Assembly (NCBI GenBank): GCA_012518555.1
Contig: JAAYRW010000097.1
Span: 1 to 55,152 of the forward strand
Source: Tissierellia bacterium
Lineage (GTDB): Bacteria; Bacillota; Clostridia; Tissierellales; Sedimentibacteraceae
Direction of reading: 5' to 3'
Length of the DNA stretch: 55,152 bases
The notes under the pieces were generated by a model. The model worked only from the letters and a program-made list of their open reading frames with translations. It was not told the DNA's origin and ran no database searches. Every line of letters starts with the position of its first letter. Position 1 is the first letter of the stretch. Position numbers and translations under genes: made by a program. Shown piece by piece: positions 1 to 6,685 of the stretch.

Positions 1-60
1 AAGACAGAGAAAGAAAAAACAAATAGCGTATATGCAGACTACAGCTGCTCATATTTTTAA
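1..60 (+). CDS. Possible C-terminal codons of the intron-encoded reverse transcriptase/maturase
   Basis: Frame 1 is open from the first base for 19 codons and stops at TAA 58-60, 17 nt before domain V. Maturase genes of bacterial group II introns usually end just before domain V, so position and strand fit. The 19 residues carry no motif I can recognise, and an open frame this short can occur by chance. The call rests on placement only. Confidence 0.3.
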   Translation, partial: KTEKEKTNSVYADYSCSYF

Positions 61-153
61 ATGAGTTATGAATGCTTGAGCGGTATGACTTCGAAAGTGT
101 CACGTACCGTTCTTAGACGAGTCGGGAACAGCGATGTTCTCGACTTAGTCGAC
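1..153 (+). mobile_element. Group II intron, 3' end (domains V and VI), cut by window start
   Basis: Positions 78-112 form a domain V. The outer arm GAGCGGTA (78-85) pairs with TACCGTTC (105-112), the catalytic AGC follows the first G, a two-base CG bulge sits at 103-104, and the inner TGAC/GTCA stem carries a GAAA loop. Domain VI follows: 121-130 pairs perfectly with 135-144 around a GCGA tetraloop, and TTAGTCGAC ends at 153. A147 is a good bulged branch-point candidate, seventh from the 3' end. The local base composition is clearly more GC-rich than the AT-rich flanks. The istA reading frame begins directly after C153, which fixes the splice site. The intron lies in the sense orientation of istA, as splicing requires. 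The 5' part and the bulk of any maturase gene lie outside the window. Confidence 0.85.
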
Positions 154-926
154 AGCGAGGTGTAGAGTATGTTAGAAGAAAAGCCTTTTCAGTTAAAACT
201 GACTTTGAATCTTTACAAGAAGCGAATAAATGGTTACAGAAAAAATTATTTGAATTGAATTCTAAAAAAAGAAAATGGTTAGAAAACAATAGTCCTATTG
301 ATATATTAAATCAGGAATCTGCTTATCTATTACCTTTGAAACCATCTTATGATACTTCAAGAAGAGTAGAATCTAGGGTTAATAAGTATAGCGTAATAAA
401 CATTGATCAAAACAAGTATTCAGTACCAGATTATCTAGTGGGAAAATTTGTAATGGTTAAAATATATCCAGAAAACATAGAAATATATTACAAGGAACAA
501 AAAATAGCTGAACATAAAAGATCATATTCAGCTCACTACTGGACAGTAGACATTAATCATTTTATTCATACATTAAAAAAGAAGCCTGGAGCATTGCATT
601 CTAGTGTTGGTAGACACCAGCTGTCCCCAGAACTTCAAGAAATATATCATAAATATTATATCAATAATCCTAAAGATTTCATAGTACTTTTAGAATTAAT
701 AAAAGAAAAAGATTTAGAATGTGTAATTAAAGCCATTACTGAATTAGCAAAAATAAAAAAAGAAATAGTAAATACTGATAATATTAAAAATATAATTTTC
801 AAACTTCCTAGAGAAGAAAACTCTTTAAAAGAAAAGGATATATCAATACAAAAGGCATCAATTGAACAAATATCAATATTAAATGATATGTTTAATTTGA
901 AAAACATAGGAGGTTATGAACATTGA
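154..926 (+). CDS. istA: IS21-family transposase IstA, 3' exon (C-terminal part)
   Basis: This is the C-terminal part of the DDE transposase of an IS21-type element, which carries out strand transfer together with IstB. From 156 the frame reads RGVEYVRRKAF followed by a segment with SLQEANKWL, the usual sequence just after the IS21 catalytic core. It then runs through the beta-barrel and C-terminal region (SRVNKYSVINIDQNKYSVP) to TGA at 924-926. A TTG at 255 could be taken as a start, but the frame is open back to 154 with IstA-like residues, so the real gene begins upstream of the intron. The upstream catalytic part is not in the window. The gene overlaps istB by 4 nt. Without intron splicing IstA could not be made whole. 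Confidence 0.85.
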
Positions 927-1681
927 ATGAAACAATAACTGAGATAAAAAAATATATAAAGGAATTAAAAATACCTGGCATAAATCAAGGATTGAAAATG
1001 AAAATTGAAGAAGCATATAAATTAGATAAATCGTATGAAGAGTTCTTAAGAGATATATTTGTTGAAGCTTACGATGTAAGAAAAGAAAATGGCAAGAAAA
1101 ATAGGATTAAGAATGCTCGTTTCCCATATAAAAAATACTTAGATGAACTTCAGGTAGACTATCTCCCAGAAGATGGGAGAAGGAAGTTTAAAGAGCTTAA
1201 AACCCTAAGTTTTATTGAGGAAGGAAGAAATATAATTTTAGCTGGAAACCCTGGTACAGGCAAAACTCACATGTCAATAGGTCTTGGTATAGATGCTTGT
1301 AATAAGGGGTATAAAGTGTTTTTTACAACAATATCGTCATTAATAAATGAATTAAAAGAATCTAGAAGTGAAAAGAAATTATATACATTTGAAAAAAGAT
1401 TTGGGAAGTACGATTTGATCATAGCTGATGAATTGGGATATATTTCTTTTGATAAAGAAGGCAGTGAATTATTGTTTACATTTCTCTCCCTTCGATCAGA
1501 GAGAAAATCCACAATAATTACGACTAATTTATCATTTGATAGATGGAATGAAGTCTTTAATGATGCTGTGTTAACAGCTGCACTAATTGATAGATTAACC
1601 CATAAATCTTACGTAATTAATATGAATGGTGATTCTTATAGAATAAAAGAAACTAAAGAATGGTTAGAAATGACCAATTAA
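923..1681 (+). CDS. istB: IS21-family helper ATPase IstB
   Basis: IstB is the AAA+ ATPase that helps IstA select targets. The 252-residue protein has the family's normal length. It has a DnaC-like N-terminal part, Walker A GNPGTGKT at about 108-115, Walker B LIIADELGY with D169-E170, and a C-terminal segment with DRLTHKSYVINMNG typical of IstB. It starts at TTG 923, overlapping the istA stop (TTGA), with AGGAGG at 908-913. That overlap is the usual translational coupling of IS21 elements. The gene looks intact. Confidence 0.93.
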   Translation: MNETITEIKKYIKELKIPGINQGLKMKIEEAYKLDKSYEEFLRDIFVEAYDVRKENGKKNRIKNARFPYKKYLDELQVDYLPEDGRRKFKELKTLSFIEEGRNIILAGNPGTGKTHMSIGLGIDACNKGYKVFFTTISSLINELKESRSEKKLYTFEKRFGKYDLIIADELGYISFDKEGSELLFTFLSLRSERKSTIITTNLSFDRWNEVFNDAVLTAALIDRLTHKSYVINMNGDSYRIKETKEWLEMTN

Positions 1682-1695
1682 TTTTTTACACTAAG

Positions 1696-1730
1696 TGGTA
1701 CAGTTTTCGATTATTAAATGGTACAGTTTT
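1696..1730. repeat. IS21 terminal direct repeats (two 12-bp copies)
   Basis: TGGTACAGTTTT occurs at 1696-1707 and again at 1719-1730, a 23-bp period (about two helical turns), between the istB stop and the inferred IS right end. Repeated sites of this kind near the termini are known transposase-binding sites in IS21 elements; binding here is inferred. Confidence 0.75.
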
Positions 1731-1739
1731 AAATTGACA

Positions 1740-2180
1740 AATACATGAAGTTCTTAATTTAAGGTATCTTGTTTATTATATTTACTTTTATATAACATAA
1801 GTAATGAACTATTGTCACAACCTATGTAGGTGTAAATGAGTAGCTTTACCTCCCAAGTAATAGGATGTAGCTTGGTATTAATACTTTGTTGAAGTTTCAA
1901 TTGTTTTAAATTATAGGAAATGTATTTACTTACCTGTTTTTATACTCTTTTCCAATAAAAAATATCCTGATTATTTTAAAAAATCTTTAACAAAAAAATC
2001 CGATTCAGTGCAGGCACCTCCTCGGTAAAGACTTTCGTTTTTGTTCTTCACTAATATTATATGAATAAATCATAGAAAAAGTCAACAATAATTTATATAA
2101 ATTTATAATAATCTTACATTCTTCTGCCACACAAATTGGAATTTGTCATTAACCTTATTTATGAATCACGTAAACGCTAT
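1740..2180. other. Gene-free stretch right of the IS element
   Basis: No convincing gene is present. The stretch contains a 17-nt exact copy of a spoIIID coding segment (1838-1854 matches 2841-2857), a well-formed minus-strand promoter (2056-2085) with a ribosome-binding-site-like GAGGAGGTG (2015-2023), and the decayed toxin end of a toxin-antitoxin pair near its right margin. It reads as eroded mobile or duplicated DNA. Confidence 0.6.
2056..2085 (-). promoter_or_regulatory. Sigma-A-type promoter reading leftward into a gene-free region
   Basis: On the minus strand TTGACT (2085-2080), an 18-nt spacer and TATAAT (2061-2056) form a near-consensus promoter. About 25 nt beyond the expected start lies GAGGAGGTG (2023-2015). 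A GTG there opens only a 12-codon frame. The promoter therefore drives either a very short peptide, a small RNA, or the remains of a lost gene. Confidence 0.5.
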
Positions 2181-3066: not shown

Positions 3067-3141
3067 GTTTAACCCCCTTTGGCATTATACCGTCTTATTT
3101 ATACTTTTATGCGTTTATCTGTCCTATTAGAACCTAAATTC

Positions 3142-3861
3142 TTATTCGATGGTAATATAGTCCAAAGGATTAACATTTTTCCCATCTACAATCAGTTCAA
3201 AATGGAGGTGTGCTCCATCGGTAGATTCAATACTTACTGTTTTTCCTACATTTCCAATTACCTGACCTTTTTCAACAGAATCACCGATTTCTACATTTGC
3301 TGATACTAAGTTACTATATAGTGTTTTTACATTATTCCCATGATCAATAATTATTTCAGTTGCTGTAATTTCTGAATTGTTTACAGCTTCAACTTTTCCA
3401 GCTAAAGCTGACTCGATAAACAATGTATCCTTTGGTTTAATATCGATTCCTTTATGTACCCTCCATTCGCCTATGGTTTCATAATAAACTAAGTCATCCA
3501 TTGTAAATTCTCTCAACAATTCCCCTTGCAATGGTAGATGCATACTACTTAAATCTGCGCTATCATTCTGACCTTCTTTTTCATCAACATCTTCTTCAGT
3601 GTCTTTTTCTGCGCTTTCATACTCTTCGATTATACCTTGTACTAAATCTTCATAAGGATCTTCGTGTGCTGCAACACCATCGTTTGGATCATCGTATTCT
3701 GAAATACGGTTTTCATTATTTGAGTTGTATCTCCAAACTACTGCTGTTGCCAAAAGAATAATGCTCAAGCCTATAATTAGGAAGCTATTATCTCTTTTTT
3801 TAACTCTAATAAAGAAATCTTTTAATTTTGTTTTTACCTTTCCAAATCTATTGTTTTTCAT
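3142..3861 (-). CDS. spoIIQ: Stage II sporulation protein SpoIIQ (LytM/M23 domain)
   Basis: SpoIIQ is the forespore membrane protein that binds SpoIIIAH across the intermembrane space to form the engulfment channel. The 239-residue protein has a cytoplasmic basic start, one membrane helix at about 28-43, an acidic linker (about 50-105) and a C-terminal M23/LytM domain. Unlike the Bacillus subtilis protein, it keeps the metal-binding set: H136 and D140 in HKGID, and HLH at 218-220. That set resembles clostridial SpoIIQ and suggests endopeptidase or at least zinc-binding capacity. AGGAGG precedes the ATG. A sigma-F-like promoter lies at 3901-3928. The gene is divergent from spoIID. Confidence 0.9.
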   Translation of the reverse strand: MKNNRFGKVKTKLKDFFIRVKKRDNSFLIIGLSIILLATAVVWRYNSNNENRISEYDDPNDGVAAHEDPYEDLVQGIIEEYESAEKDTEEDVDEKEGQNDSADLSSMHLPLQGELLREFTMDDLVYYETIGEWRVHKGIDIKPKDTLFIESALAGKVEAVNNSEITATEIIIDHGNNVKTLYSNLVSANVEIGDSVEKGQVIGNVGKTVSIESTDGAHLHFELIVDGKNVNPLDYITIE

Positions 3862-3900
3862 ATAAACCTCCTGTTTAATACTTCTTTATTATCTGAAAAT

Positions 3901-3928
3901 AGTGTGTCCCATTTTTTTTATTTAATAC
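3901..3928 (-). promoter_or_regulatory. Candidate sigma-F promoter of spoIIQ
   Basis: On the minus strand GTATT (3928-3924) is followed after 14 nt by GGACACACT (3909-3901), which fits the forespore sigma-F -10 pattern GGnnAnAnT exactly. It lies about 40 nt before the spoIIQ start. spoIIQ is a known sigma-F gene in Bacillus. The -35 is one base off GYATA and the spacing is one or two short of the usual. Confidence 0.5.
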
Positions 3929-3993
3929 AATTTTGTTCTAAATATTTCTATTTTTCATAAAATATAAAAAACTTATGATAAAGGGGTATTAAT

Positions 3994-5049
3994 ATGTTAA
4001 ACCGAATAATTTATGCTTTTGTTGTTTTTGGATTACTTTTAACTATTCCCAGCTTATCTCTAAACTTTTTTGAAAGTAAAATGAATTTAATTAGTGCAGA
4101 GGTAATTGCCGAGGAAAATAGGGAAAAACATGAAGTAAGTAAATATGAAGTAAGTAAACAGGAGGAAAAACTTGAAACTGTAGAAATGAAGGAGCCTGAA
4201 CTAATAAAGGTTTACAACAACAAAACAAATGAAGTTATGGTAATTGATTTTGAAGAATATCTTAAAGGTGTAGTAGCTTCGGAAATGCCTGCGGAGTTTA
4301 ATATCGAAGCTCTTAAAGCTCAGGCAGTAACTGCAAGAACATATCTATTATTTCGTTTGAAAAAATATCCTAACGGACAGCCGGAACATAGTGATGCTCC
4401 AATTTGTACTGATGTTCACTGCCAAGTATGGAGTTCAAAAGATACTTTACTAAATTCTCATGCTGACGGCTGGTACGATGCTTATTGGGGTAAAATCGAG
4501 GAGGCAGTTAATTCAACTAAGGGGCAAATTTTAACTTATGATGGTAAAATAATAGAGCCTTTATACCATTCTACTAGCGGTGGCAGAACTGAAAATTCAG
4601 AGGATGTCTTTTCTACTGCAGTCCCTTATTTAAGAAGTGTAGAAAGCCCTTACGAAGGAGAAGCTCCTAAATTAAATGATTCGATAAAAGTTTCGGTAGG
4701 ACATTTCATTGATAAAATTGAGTCTGTATACGGCGAGATGGATATAACAGAAAGTAATTTAGATGAAAAGATTGAACTGGGAGAAGTCAGTGAAGGTGGT
4801 AAAATCAAAACACTGCTAATTAATGGAAATGAAGTTTCAGGGCGAGAAATAAGGTCTTTATTTAATCTTAATTCTACCAATTTTAGTTTCATTCAATCTG
4901 GAAATGAAATTGAAATATTAACCACAGGCTACGGCCATGGTGTAGGCATGAGTCAGTGGGGAGCTGAGGGAATGGCAAACGAAGGTTTCAATTACAAAGA
5001 AATATTAAAACATTACTATACTGACGTTGAGATTGTAAGTATGAAGTAA
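3994..5049 (+). CDS. spoIID: Stage II sporulation protein SpoIID, peptidoglycan lytic transglycosylase
   Basis: SpoIID cleaves glycan strands during engulfment as part of the SpoIID-SpoIIM-SpoIIP complex of the mother-cell membrane. The 351-residue protein has an N-terminal membrane anchor (about 5-24), a charged linker, and the SpoIID domain. Residues 88-115 carry EEYLKGVVASEMP, where E97 corresponds to the catalytic Glu88 of Bacillus. STSGGRTENSEDVF follows, and the conserved C-terminal GYGHGVGMSQWGA. AAAGGGG precedes the ATG. The gene is divergent from spoIIQ, a pairing of functional partners in engulfment. Genes for SpoIIM and SpoIIP are not in the window. Confidence 0.95.
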   Translation: MLNRIIYAFVVFGLLLTIPSLSLNFFESKMNLISAEVIAEENREKHEVSKYEVSKQEEKLETVEMKEPELIKVYNNKTNEVMVIDFEEYLKGVVASEMPAEFNIEALKAQAVTARTYLLFRLKKYPNGQPEHSDAPICTDVHCQVWSSKDTLLNSHADGWYDAYWGKIEEAVNSTKGQILTYDGKIIEPLYHSTSGGRTENSEDVFSTAVPYLRSVESPYEGEAPKLNDSIKVSVGHFIDKIESVYGEMDITESNLDEKIELGEVSEGGKIKTLLINGNEVSGREIRSLFNLNSTNFSFIQSGNEIEILTTGYGHGVGMSQWGAEGMANEGFNYKEILKHYYTDVEIVSMK

Positions 5050-5112
5050 AATTTTATATACAATTGTATTATTCTATGATATTATTGTAAAGTAACTTTT
5101 AGAAAGGATAAT

Positions 5113-5442
5113 ATGATGATATTTATAGATAATACTGCCTATAAAGAGTTCAAGGAATTGTTAGATAAGGCAAATGTTAGGTCCTACAATGTAAGAATTG
5201 GGCTTGATCGGGTAGGATGTAGAGGGCCGATTTTCGATGTATATATAGATGAACCAACTGAAGACGATGAAGTTGAAGTAATTAATGAAATAACATTTAT
5301 TTCAGAAAAATCCTTATTGGAAGAATACGGAGGATTTATAATCGTATCTAATGAAGAAAATAAGGGCAATGGCGTTGGAATGAAACCAGTCGTAACTTCT
5401 TCTTCTGGATGCGGTGGATGTGGCGGTGGATGTAGGAAATAA
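5113..5442 (+). CDS. HesB/IscA-like protein with Gly-Cys tail
   Basis: This 109-residue protein is related to the HesB/IscA iron-sulfur carrier family (N-terminal IDNTAYKEFKELL, then VRIGLDRVGCRGPIFDVYID and a beta-rich middle). It lacks the usual closely spaced C-terminal CGCG pair and instead ends in CGGCGGGC, four cysteines in a glycine-rich tail that could hold a metal or cluster. Two adjacent ATGs at 5113 and 5116 follow AGAAAGGA. It lies 63 nt after spoIID and is followed by a terminator, so it may be co-transcribed with spoIID or have its own promoter. A specific function cannot be assigned. Confidence 0.75.
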   Translation: MMIFIDNTAYKEFKELLDKANVRSYNVRIGLDRVGCRGPIFDVYIDEPTEDDEVEVINEITFISEKSLLEEYGGFIIVSNEENKGNGVGMKPVVTSSSGCGGCGGGCRK

Positions 5443-5511
5443 GGTATGACACACCTCTATAATTGTATATTCTCTGCCAATAGTTTTTAAAGAATGTTCC
5501 CAAGACTAAAA

Positions 5512-5562
5512 GGAGCTGTGCACTAGCGGGTATTCAACCACTAATGCTGCAGCCCTTTTTTT
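5512..5562 (+). terminator. Terminator after the HesB-like gene
   Basis: A long imperfect hairpin (arms about 5512-5529 and 5538-5555) is followed by a run of seven Ts. It lies 70 nt after the stop. Confidence 0.65.
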
Positions 5563-5567
5563 GCAAT

Positions 5568-5589
5568 AAAAAACGGCCTTAGCCGTTTT
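5568..5589 (-). terminator. Terminator of the rpsF-ssb-rpsR operon
   Basis: AAAACGGC (5570-5577) pairs with GCCGTTTT (5582-5589) around CTTA. Read leftward it ends in a T run. It lies about 45 nt past the rpsR stop and can also act on the plus strand. Confidence 0.75.
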
Positions 5590-5631
5590 AAAAGAGATTC
5601 TTCAGGCTAGGCCTTCAGAATGACAATCTAA

Positions 5632-5886
5632 TTATTCTGCTACATATGGCAATAATGCAATTGATCTCGCTCTTTTTATTGCTCTAGTTACCATTCTTTG
5701 ATGCTTAGCACAAGCACCGGTAATTCTTCTTGGTAATATTTTTCCTCTTTCAGTTGTGTATTTTTTCAACCTTCCGAGGTCTTTATAATCTATATGTGTT
5801 GTCTTTTCCTGACAAAATTGGCATACTTTTTTTCTTGGTCTTCTTCTTTGGTTGTATCTTTCATTTCCGCCTTGTCTTGAACTCAT
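5632..5886 (-). CDS. rpsR: 30S ribosomal protein S18
   Basis: S18 binds S6 and 16S rRNA in the platform of the small subunit. The 84-residue sequence has the basic N-terminus ([12 protein letters not shown]), the [23 protein letters not shown] core and [18 protein letters not shown] and a later Cys make it a C+ (potentially zinc-binding) form. It is last in the rpsF-ssb-rpsR operon, the standard bacterial order. Confidence 0.97.
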
Positions 5887-5916
5887 CCTTATCCTCCTTC
5901 CGCTGTGTTAATTCCA

Positions 5917-6378
5917 TTAAAATGGAATATCTTCGTCGTCTACCGGTTGGAAAATATCATTATCTTCATCGGGAAAATCATTAAAAAAGCTGCTATCTGG
6001 CTGTACTGGTTTTCCCTGTTGTGGTGATGAAGATTGATCCCTGGAACCGATAAATTCTACTTTATCTGCTATTACTTCTGTTGTATATCTTTTTTCACCT
6101 GTCTGAGTAGTATAACTTCCTGTTGAAATTCTGCCTTGTACTGCACACTGTCTTCCTTTAGAAAGATAATTTGCACAATTTTCCGCTATTTTTCCAAATA
6201 CAGTTATGTTTATGAAATCTGCTGTTGGCTTTCCCTGACTGATTGCTTGTTGTTTTCTTTCTCCATATAAATCTCTATCTACTGCTAATGTGAATTTTGC
6301 AACTGCCATACCTGTCGACGGTATGAATCTAAGCTCCGGATCTCTTGTCAGTCTTCCTATTAATACAACACTATTCAT
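5917..6378 (-). CDS. ssb: Single-stranded DNA-binding protein
   Basis: SSB coats single-stranded DNA and recruits replication and repair proteins. The 153-residue product has a full OB fold (MNSVVLIGRLTRDPELRFIPSTG... through FIGSRDQ, about 1-110), a glutamine/proline-rich linker, and the acidic tip DDEDIPF that binds partner proteins. It is placed between rpsF and rpsR, as in most Firmicutes, so expression follows the ribosomal promoter at 6744-6772. Confidence 0.97.
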   Translation of the reverse strand: MNSVVLIGRLTRDPELRFIPSTGMAVAKFTLAVDRDLYGERKQQAISQGKPTADFINITVFGKIAENCANYLSKGRQCAVQGRISTGSYTTQTGEKRYTTEVIADKVEFIGSRDQSSSPQQGKPVQPDSSFFNDFPDEDNDIFQPVDDEDIPF

Positions 6379-6397
6379 AATACTACCTCTTTTTTAT

Positions 6398-6685
6398 TTA
6401 TTTTTCTTCTACTGTAATCATATGTCTGATAAAATTTTCGCTTATTCTGCAAATTCTGTTAATTTCGTCAACAGCATCTGAACCTGCGGTAAATTCAACA
6501 AACACATAATAACCTTCTCTTTTTTTGTCAATTTCGTAAGCAAGTCTTCTTTGACCCCACTCATTAACATTTCCAACTGTTCCCTGTCTTTCAGTTATTA
6601 TGTTTTTTACTTTTTCAATTTCCGCATTTCTTACTTCTTCTTCTAAATTTGATAGTAAGATAAAAGCACCTTCATATTTTCTCAT
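6398..6685 (-). CDS. rpsF: 30S ribosomal protein S6
   Basis: S6 pairs with S18 on the 30S platform. The 95-residue product shows the S6 ferredoxin-like fold pattern: MRKYEGAFILLSN at the start, the WGQRRLAYEIDKKREGYYVFVEF signature in the middle, and RISENFIRHMI near the end. AGGGAGGTGAC precedes the ATG. It is first in the operon, behind a sigma-A promoter and a leader hairpin with a CCG bulge that resembles the S6:S18 binding site. Confidence 0.97.
   Translation of the reverse strand: MRKYEGAFILLSNLEEEVRNAEIEKVKNIITERQGTVGNVNEWGQRRLAYEIDKKREGYYVFVEFTAGSDAVDEINRICRISENFIRHMITVEEK

Follow-up and report, generated by a model that had tools for sequence, protein, structure and literature searches.

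What arrangement is formed by the group II intron and the IS21 transposase gene that meet at the start of the window (the whole stretch of 55,152 nucleotides analysed here), and can the gene still yield its product? Group II introns within transposase genes are an already established arrangement, of which this locus is a further example. The features on which the analysis rests are distributed as follows:

1..75, + strand: intron sequence before domain V, too short to identify; it may comprise the end of the reading frame of an intron-encoded protein and a spacer.
78..112, + strand: group II intron domain V (AGC triad at 79-81, GAAA loop, two-base bulge), from the RF00029 match and pair changes against 19 relatives.
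116..150, + strand: domain VI hairpin with a bulged branch-point A at 147, from the fold and covariation.
153..154, + strand: predicted intron 3' splice junction within a Glu codon (G/AG), from the end of the Rfam model, the start of the IstA match and the intronless site of the relative L026.
154..926, + strand: istA 3' exon, i.e. the last two bases of the predicted catalytic Glu codon, 256 codons and the stop, from Mu-transpos_C_2 and IstA homology.
923..1681, + strand: istB, AAA+ helper ATPase of IS21 (PF01695 IstB_IS21, E 1.4e-64), overlapping the istA stop.
1697..1745, + strand: IS21 right end, with two GGTACAGTTTT copies (1697, 1720) and a terminal ...AAATACA, its exact end being the probable one.

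Positions 76-153 are group II intron domains V and VI, with the intron 3' end at 153. The model RF00029 matches this region over its whole length with 50.0 bits (E 6.5e-7; gathering score 40), and the model ends at 153. The 78 bases fold at -35.3 kcal/mol, whereas their shuffles average -20.6 (z -5.32; none of 200 equal). Together with the paired changes reported below, these results bear out the preliminary description, made from the sequence alone, which had placed domain V with its AGC and GAAA loop at 78-112, followed by a domain VI hairpin and the intron end at 153. The "CG" bulge that it also proposed is present in the minimum-energy fold, whereas the centroid gives "AC": the two-base bulge has two near-equal registers. 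The GAAA tetraloop can be closed by a C-G pair, and one T-T mismatch adjoins. In group II introns the branch-point A of domain VI is bulged 7-8 bases from the 3' splice site; here the bulged A147 is the seventh base counted from the intron end.

Covariation was examined in an alignment of the window with 19 relatives, hand-chosen from 43 domain V pattern matches on 40 DNA stretches (all in genome_contigs, none in viral_contigs). The search pattern largely fixed domain V, and of domain VI covered the first six columns only, one of them free. In the 20 sequences, 12 of 28 pairs are changed on both sides while keeping a standard pair, and 98.4% of the cells pair, two choices favouring the structure here: the window's own fold supplied the domain VI pairs, and the register of the inner domain V pairs was changed after a first count of 95.0% pairing. 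No observed covariation measure was matched by any of 500 shuffles, and sliding the partners weakened every measure, pairing falling to 34.6-57.5%. Ten of the 12 doubly changed pairs are altered in the window itself (3 in domain V, 7 in domain VI). Domain VI is a 15-pair helix with 9 pairs changed on both sides and 99% of cells paired, and in the window most of its upper stem is swapped for another, equally complementary stem. At the inner domain V position where the window has its T-T mismatch, 6 of the 20 sequences are unpaired.

The exon that follows corresponds to the end of IstA. Starting at 156, the istA frame runs without internal stop to its stop codon at 924-926, as expected from the earlier proposal of an istA frame directly after the intron; it contains a Mu-transpos_C_2 domain at about 339-551. 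An intact IstA of 543 residues, from a genome in the same order, is 83% identical to it over residues 287-543. Codon differences from L026 number 62 synonymous and 43 non-synonymous. With the model NF033546 the window IstA stays below the cut-off, 61 residues being aligned; the exon holds the C-terminal 256 residues, and the N-terminal part with both catalytic Asp is absent from the contig. Homology starts at residue 287 of the intact relative, a Glu that aligns with E233 of IS5376 IstA. The catalytic triad of the latter is D124/D187/E233, according to the available text of PMC10122671. Across the same site the intronless L026 has GGTCATGTTGAAAGAGG, which reads GTT-GAA. Because the window 3' exon begins with AGCGAGG, the intron appears to split the catalytic Glu codon of IstA after its first base, that is in phase 1, G/AG. 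The junction is precise to the base and the codon phase is right, in line with the sense orientation already attributed to the intron. Upstream of 153, stops occur in every frame of the part of the intron that is visible, so that production of a whole IstA would require splicing.

To what extent this site is occupied elsewhere was evaluated by a survey of IstA matches in 249 genomes of the order (E 1e-30 or better, the best five candidates at most per genome, counted by hand). Among the 47 matches listed, 35 align across the Glu codon, a few of them with stops, and only the window starts there; empty (intronless) sites exist in relatives. The remaining 11 are other partial pieces, including three pieces at contig ends in genome G229. 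These were considered as an intron-split IstA and rejected: they end 9-10 codons upstream of the Glu, and the site itself is intact. The three pieces (L137, L138, L139) overlap by 7 bases (GTAGCTA) at the contig ends where they stop; a repeat may have broken the assembly there.

The host element resembles the IS5376/IS21 family in its IstA homology, overlapping istB and end repeats, the DDE core being conserved in the intact relative; it differs in having an intron in its istA. Its left end falls outside the contig. Its right end was placed at 1745, as the probable position, by comparison with L026, where CCTAT both follows the same terminal ...AAATACA and stands before the left end, TGTTTATG. 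The left repeat of ISEfa15, an IS21-family element, also starts with TGTTTATG (PMC6142821, available part). L026 itself (G083:C57) is an intact IS21 relative lying within an apparent CRISPR array (repeat GATTTACATTCTACTGTAGTTCTATTAATAA), where CCTAT appears as a 5-base target duplication.

The 5' half of the arrangement would lie beyond the window. The window and contig C33 share their first base, and the visible sequence starts inside the intron. The source draft genome comprises 2.09 Mb in 176 contigs and is 88% complete. Within it, the RF00029 match is unique to the window (all 85 candidates scored), and searches with RF00029, GIIM and RVT_1 detected no further intron part in other contigs; the GTGYG 5' boundary and domains I-IV would lie ahead of the contig start. 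The GIIM and RVT_1 searches of the 176 contigs gave no maturase over the cut-off, and a search of the same contigs with the intact IstA gave no istA 5' part able to join at the junction. Two matches below the cut-off were taken as chance: one to GIIM (L029, 18.7 bits), with a stop inside, and one to RVT_1 (L030, 12.6 bits), in a 148-codon frame that by eye lies directly upstream of a FlgK-like frame. IstA matches in the draft are confined to the window and a decayed remnant on C145, the IstA search finding no other intact istA of the window's family there. This remnant of a second IS21 (L032, G000:C145, 139-303) consists of 55 N-terminal IstA residues with one stop, followed by other sequence. 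Since the draft is 88% complete and split into 176 contigs, the absence of the 5' parts from it is weak evidence.

In the roughly 60 bases upstream of domain V, two of the three frames are open. Frame 2 of 1-61 was considered as a maturase C-terminus from a likeness seen by eye, and was dropped: its similarity to related intron proteins is no better than chance, 685 of 1000 residue shuffles and 263 of 1000 base shuffles scoring as high against 25 rule-picked maturase C-termini. The proposal of an intron nested in istA thus stands for its 3' part, in sense and to the base, while the draft yielded none of the upstream parts whose search had been suggested (the 5' boundary of the intron, its maturase and the 5' exon of istA).

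We consider most probable, at about 0.82, that a group II intron has retrohomed in the sense orientation into istA of an IS21 element, splitting the catalytic Glu codon, and that splicing restores IstA. An intron of the kind carrying a maturase/reverse transcriptase would have retrohomed into istA in phase 1. The istA 5' exon, ending in G, and the intron 5' end with its maturase would then lie upstream of the contig start. The precursor RNA would be spliced with maturase help and the exons rejoined as GAG, restoring IstA. Unspliced transcripts would give no active transposase, so that mobility of the IS would be limited by intron splicing, and the intron could travel with the IS and home into empty istA copies.

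Several comparable systems are known. IntA introns were reportedly described by Han in 2004 in IS3-family elements of E. coli. E.c.I4, also from E. coli, lies at specific positions of IS3-like transposases (PMC3522654, available text). Both target the IS3 family, in contrast to the window intron, located in IS21 istA. The closest parallel in architecture is RmInt1 in ISRm2011-2 of Sinorhizobium meliloti: there too a group II intron occupies an IS transposase gene and the transposase needs splicing, and low splicing, with less than 1% of correctly spliced exons cited in vivo, is proposed to restrict how far the IS spreads (PMC4238363, available sections). The two differ in their hosts, an IS630-Tc1 family element for RmInt1 and IS21 for the window, and RmInt1 is a IIB3/class D intron with demonstrated splicing whereas splicing is predicted for the window. 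In the literature naming both subjects, with most subscription papers outside the search and sources available in part, no published group II intron in IS21 or istA was found; the available text of PMC4238363 and PMC8919778 does not mention IS21.

The preliminary description proposed that transposase synthesis depends on splicing, which follows from the anatomy as a prediction, and that one mobile element would thereby control another. By analogy with RmInt1, for which the idea is already published (PMC4238363, available sections), an active intron might have been selected as a brake, inefficient splicing shielding the host from IS21. This would add to the favoured reading while leaving the anatomy the same, and the shared architecture and the splicing argument just cited speak for it. 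However, the IstA search of the draft gave no other intact istA of the family to be regulated, and neutral homing into non-essential DNA accounts for the pattern as well; we regard such selection as unlikely.

A dead 3' intron fragment in istA, produced by incomplete reverse transcription or a later deletion, would leave no IstA and an immobile IS21 copy. The draft, having yielded neither a reverse transcriptase/maturase over the cut-off nor an istA part that fits the junction, agrees with this, as does a review stating, in its available part, that most bacterial group II copies are truncated or inactivated (PMC4424553). Pointing the other way, group II introns are reported to have fewer fragmentary copies than IS (PMC4072520, available part). 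Furthermore, the contig ends inside the intron, as multi-copy introns can break assemblies, and a truncation itself is unseen; moreover domain VI, the istA 3' exon and istB are undamaged, and domain V has one mismatch only. A dead fragment is on this evidence quite improbable. As for an assembly chimera, the join does lie close to a contig end (153 bases) in a draft assembly, but it falls to the base at the Rfam-predicted intron end and the start of IstA homology with the codon phase intact, and searches of the draft gave no further copy of either part that could have been misjoined, so that we give this explanation hardly any credit.

Second cases of such nesting were also sought. A pattern combining domain V with the istA exon was found in no stretch of genome_contigs or viral_contigs; this pattern is strict and exact, matches the window once, and is limited to IstA of the (R/K..)(G/S)(V/I)E(Y/F)(V/I) type, and the searched set may lack records close to the window's genome. 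DNA searches detected no second intron/istA junction in 100 relatives, 249 genomes of the order and 391 of the class (at most the best four, three and two candidates per genome, respectively). A plasmid search returned three records, matching the istA part alone, and a phage search returned none. A second case at istA may nevertheless exist, given the strictness of the pattern and the possible exclusion of near relatives from the scan.

The domain V pattern itself leads to a lineage of similar introns, located mostly in IS3-type transposases. Its members (L097-L136 without L124 and L135, plus L022, L023, L024 and L049) come mostly from Clostridia-type genomes and are spread over many genera. 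In 34 of the 43 matches the first base of the 3' exon opens a frame that encodes an IS3-type transposase sequence with a DN..E-like motif. The other nine lack such a reading: L113, L126, L128 and L133 start like IS3 exons and miss the motif or stop early; the 3' exon was not placed in L102 and in one of the two matches in L122; and the Pedobacter copies, two in L124 and one in L135, have 3' exons unlike transposases. Among the 38 matches long enough for a domain scan (five being too short), 31 match rve_3 and 29 match rve_2. The 5' junction HSDxGxx/GTGYGACAA is seen in 14 of the 43 and not found in 13, while 16 have fewer than 1,500 upstream bases. In the 14 introns with both ends placed, the 3' ends being placed by rule (off by some bases in L102), 11 measure 2,100-2,235 bases and the others 476, 1,720 and 2,391. 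TIGR04416 identifies the one protein tested as a group II maturase; it comes from L108, which is apparently the same stretch as L022.

The window intron resembles this IS3-homing lineage but occupies a different site. They share the domain V pattern, a TYAGAYGAG-like start, the (A/G)TCGA(C/T/G) end of domain VI and a location in a DDE/RNase H-fold transposase core. The lineage inserts after HSDxGxx, in the second catalytic Asp region (the 14 matches with a 5' junction), whereas the window intron lies at the IstA catalytic Glu; none of the 43 matches has istA as its 3' exon, and the upper stem of domain VI is almost wholly replaced in the window relative to the lineage. The window intron is a candidate descendant of this lineage, retargeted to the IstA Glu codon, and descent stays at the candidate stage because the 75 bases upstream of domain V are uninformative. 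The fuller proposal, of an active lineage specialised on DDE cores that moved from the second Asp region of IS3 to the Glu codon of IS21, with a splicing-dependent transposase and the first described IS21-nested case, is in our view tentative and rather doubtful.

The locus adds IS21 to the transposase genes occupied by group II introns and offers an example of an intron that would split the codon for a catalytic residue. Considered alongside the IS3-targeted relatives, whose insertions follow the catalytic HSD, it suggests a choice of homing sites in the most conserved parts of transposases; a site of this kind would give one intron access to many different IS copies.

Within the lineage, two stretches show nesting of a further kind. 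L024 (about 3073-3849, minus strand) has two domain V copies ordered as in L023, with a FVITAN..-like stretch after the inner copy; the first part of the outer maturase is not seen in this stretch. L023 (about 3069-6408, minus strand) holds two introns, one within the other: the outer lies in an IS3-type transposase, and the inner, a group II intron that carries its own maturase, is inserted at the YADD of the outer maturase.
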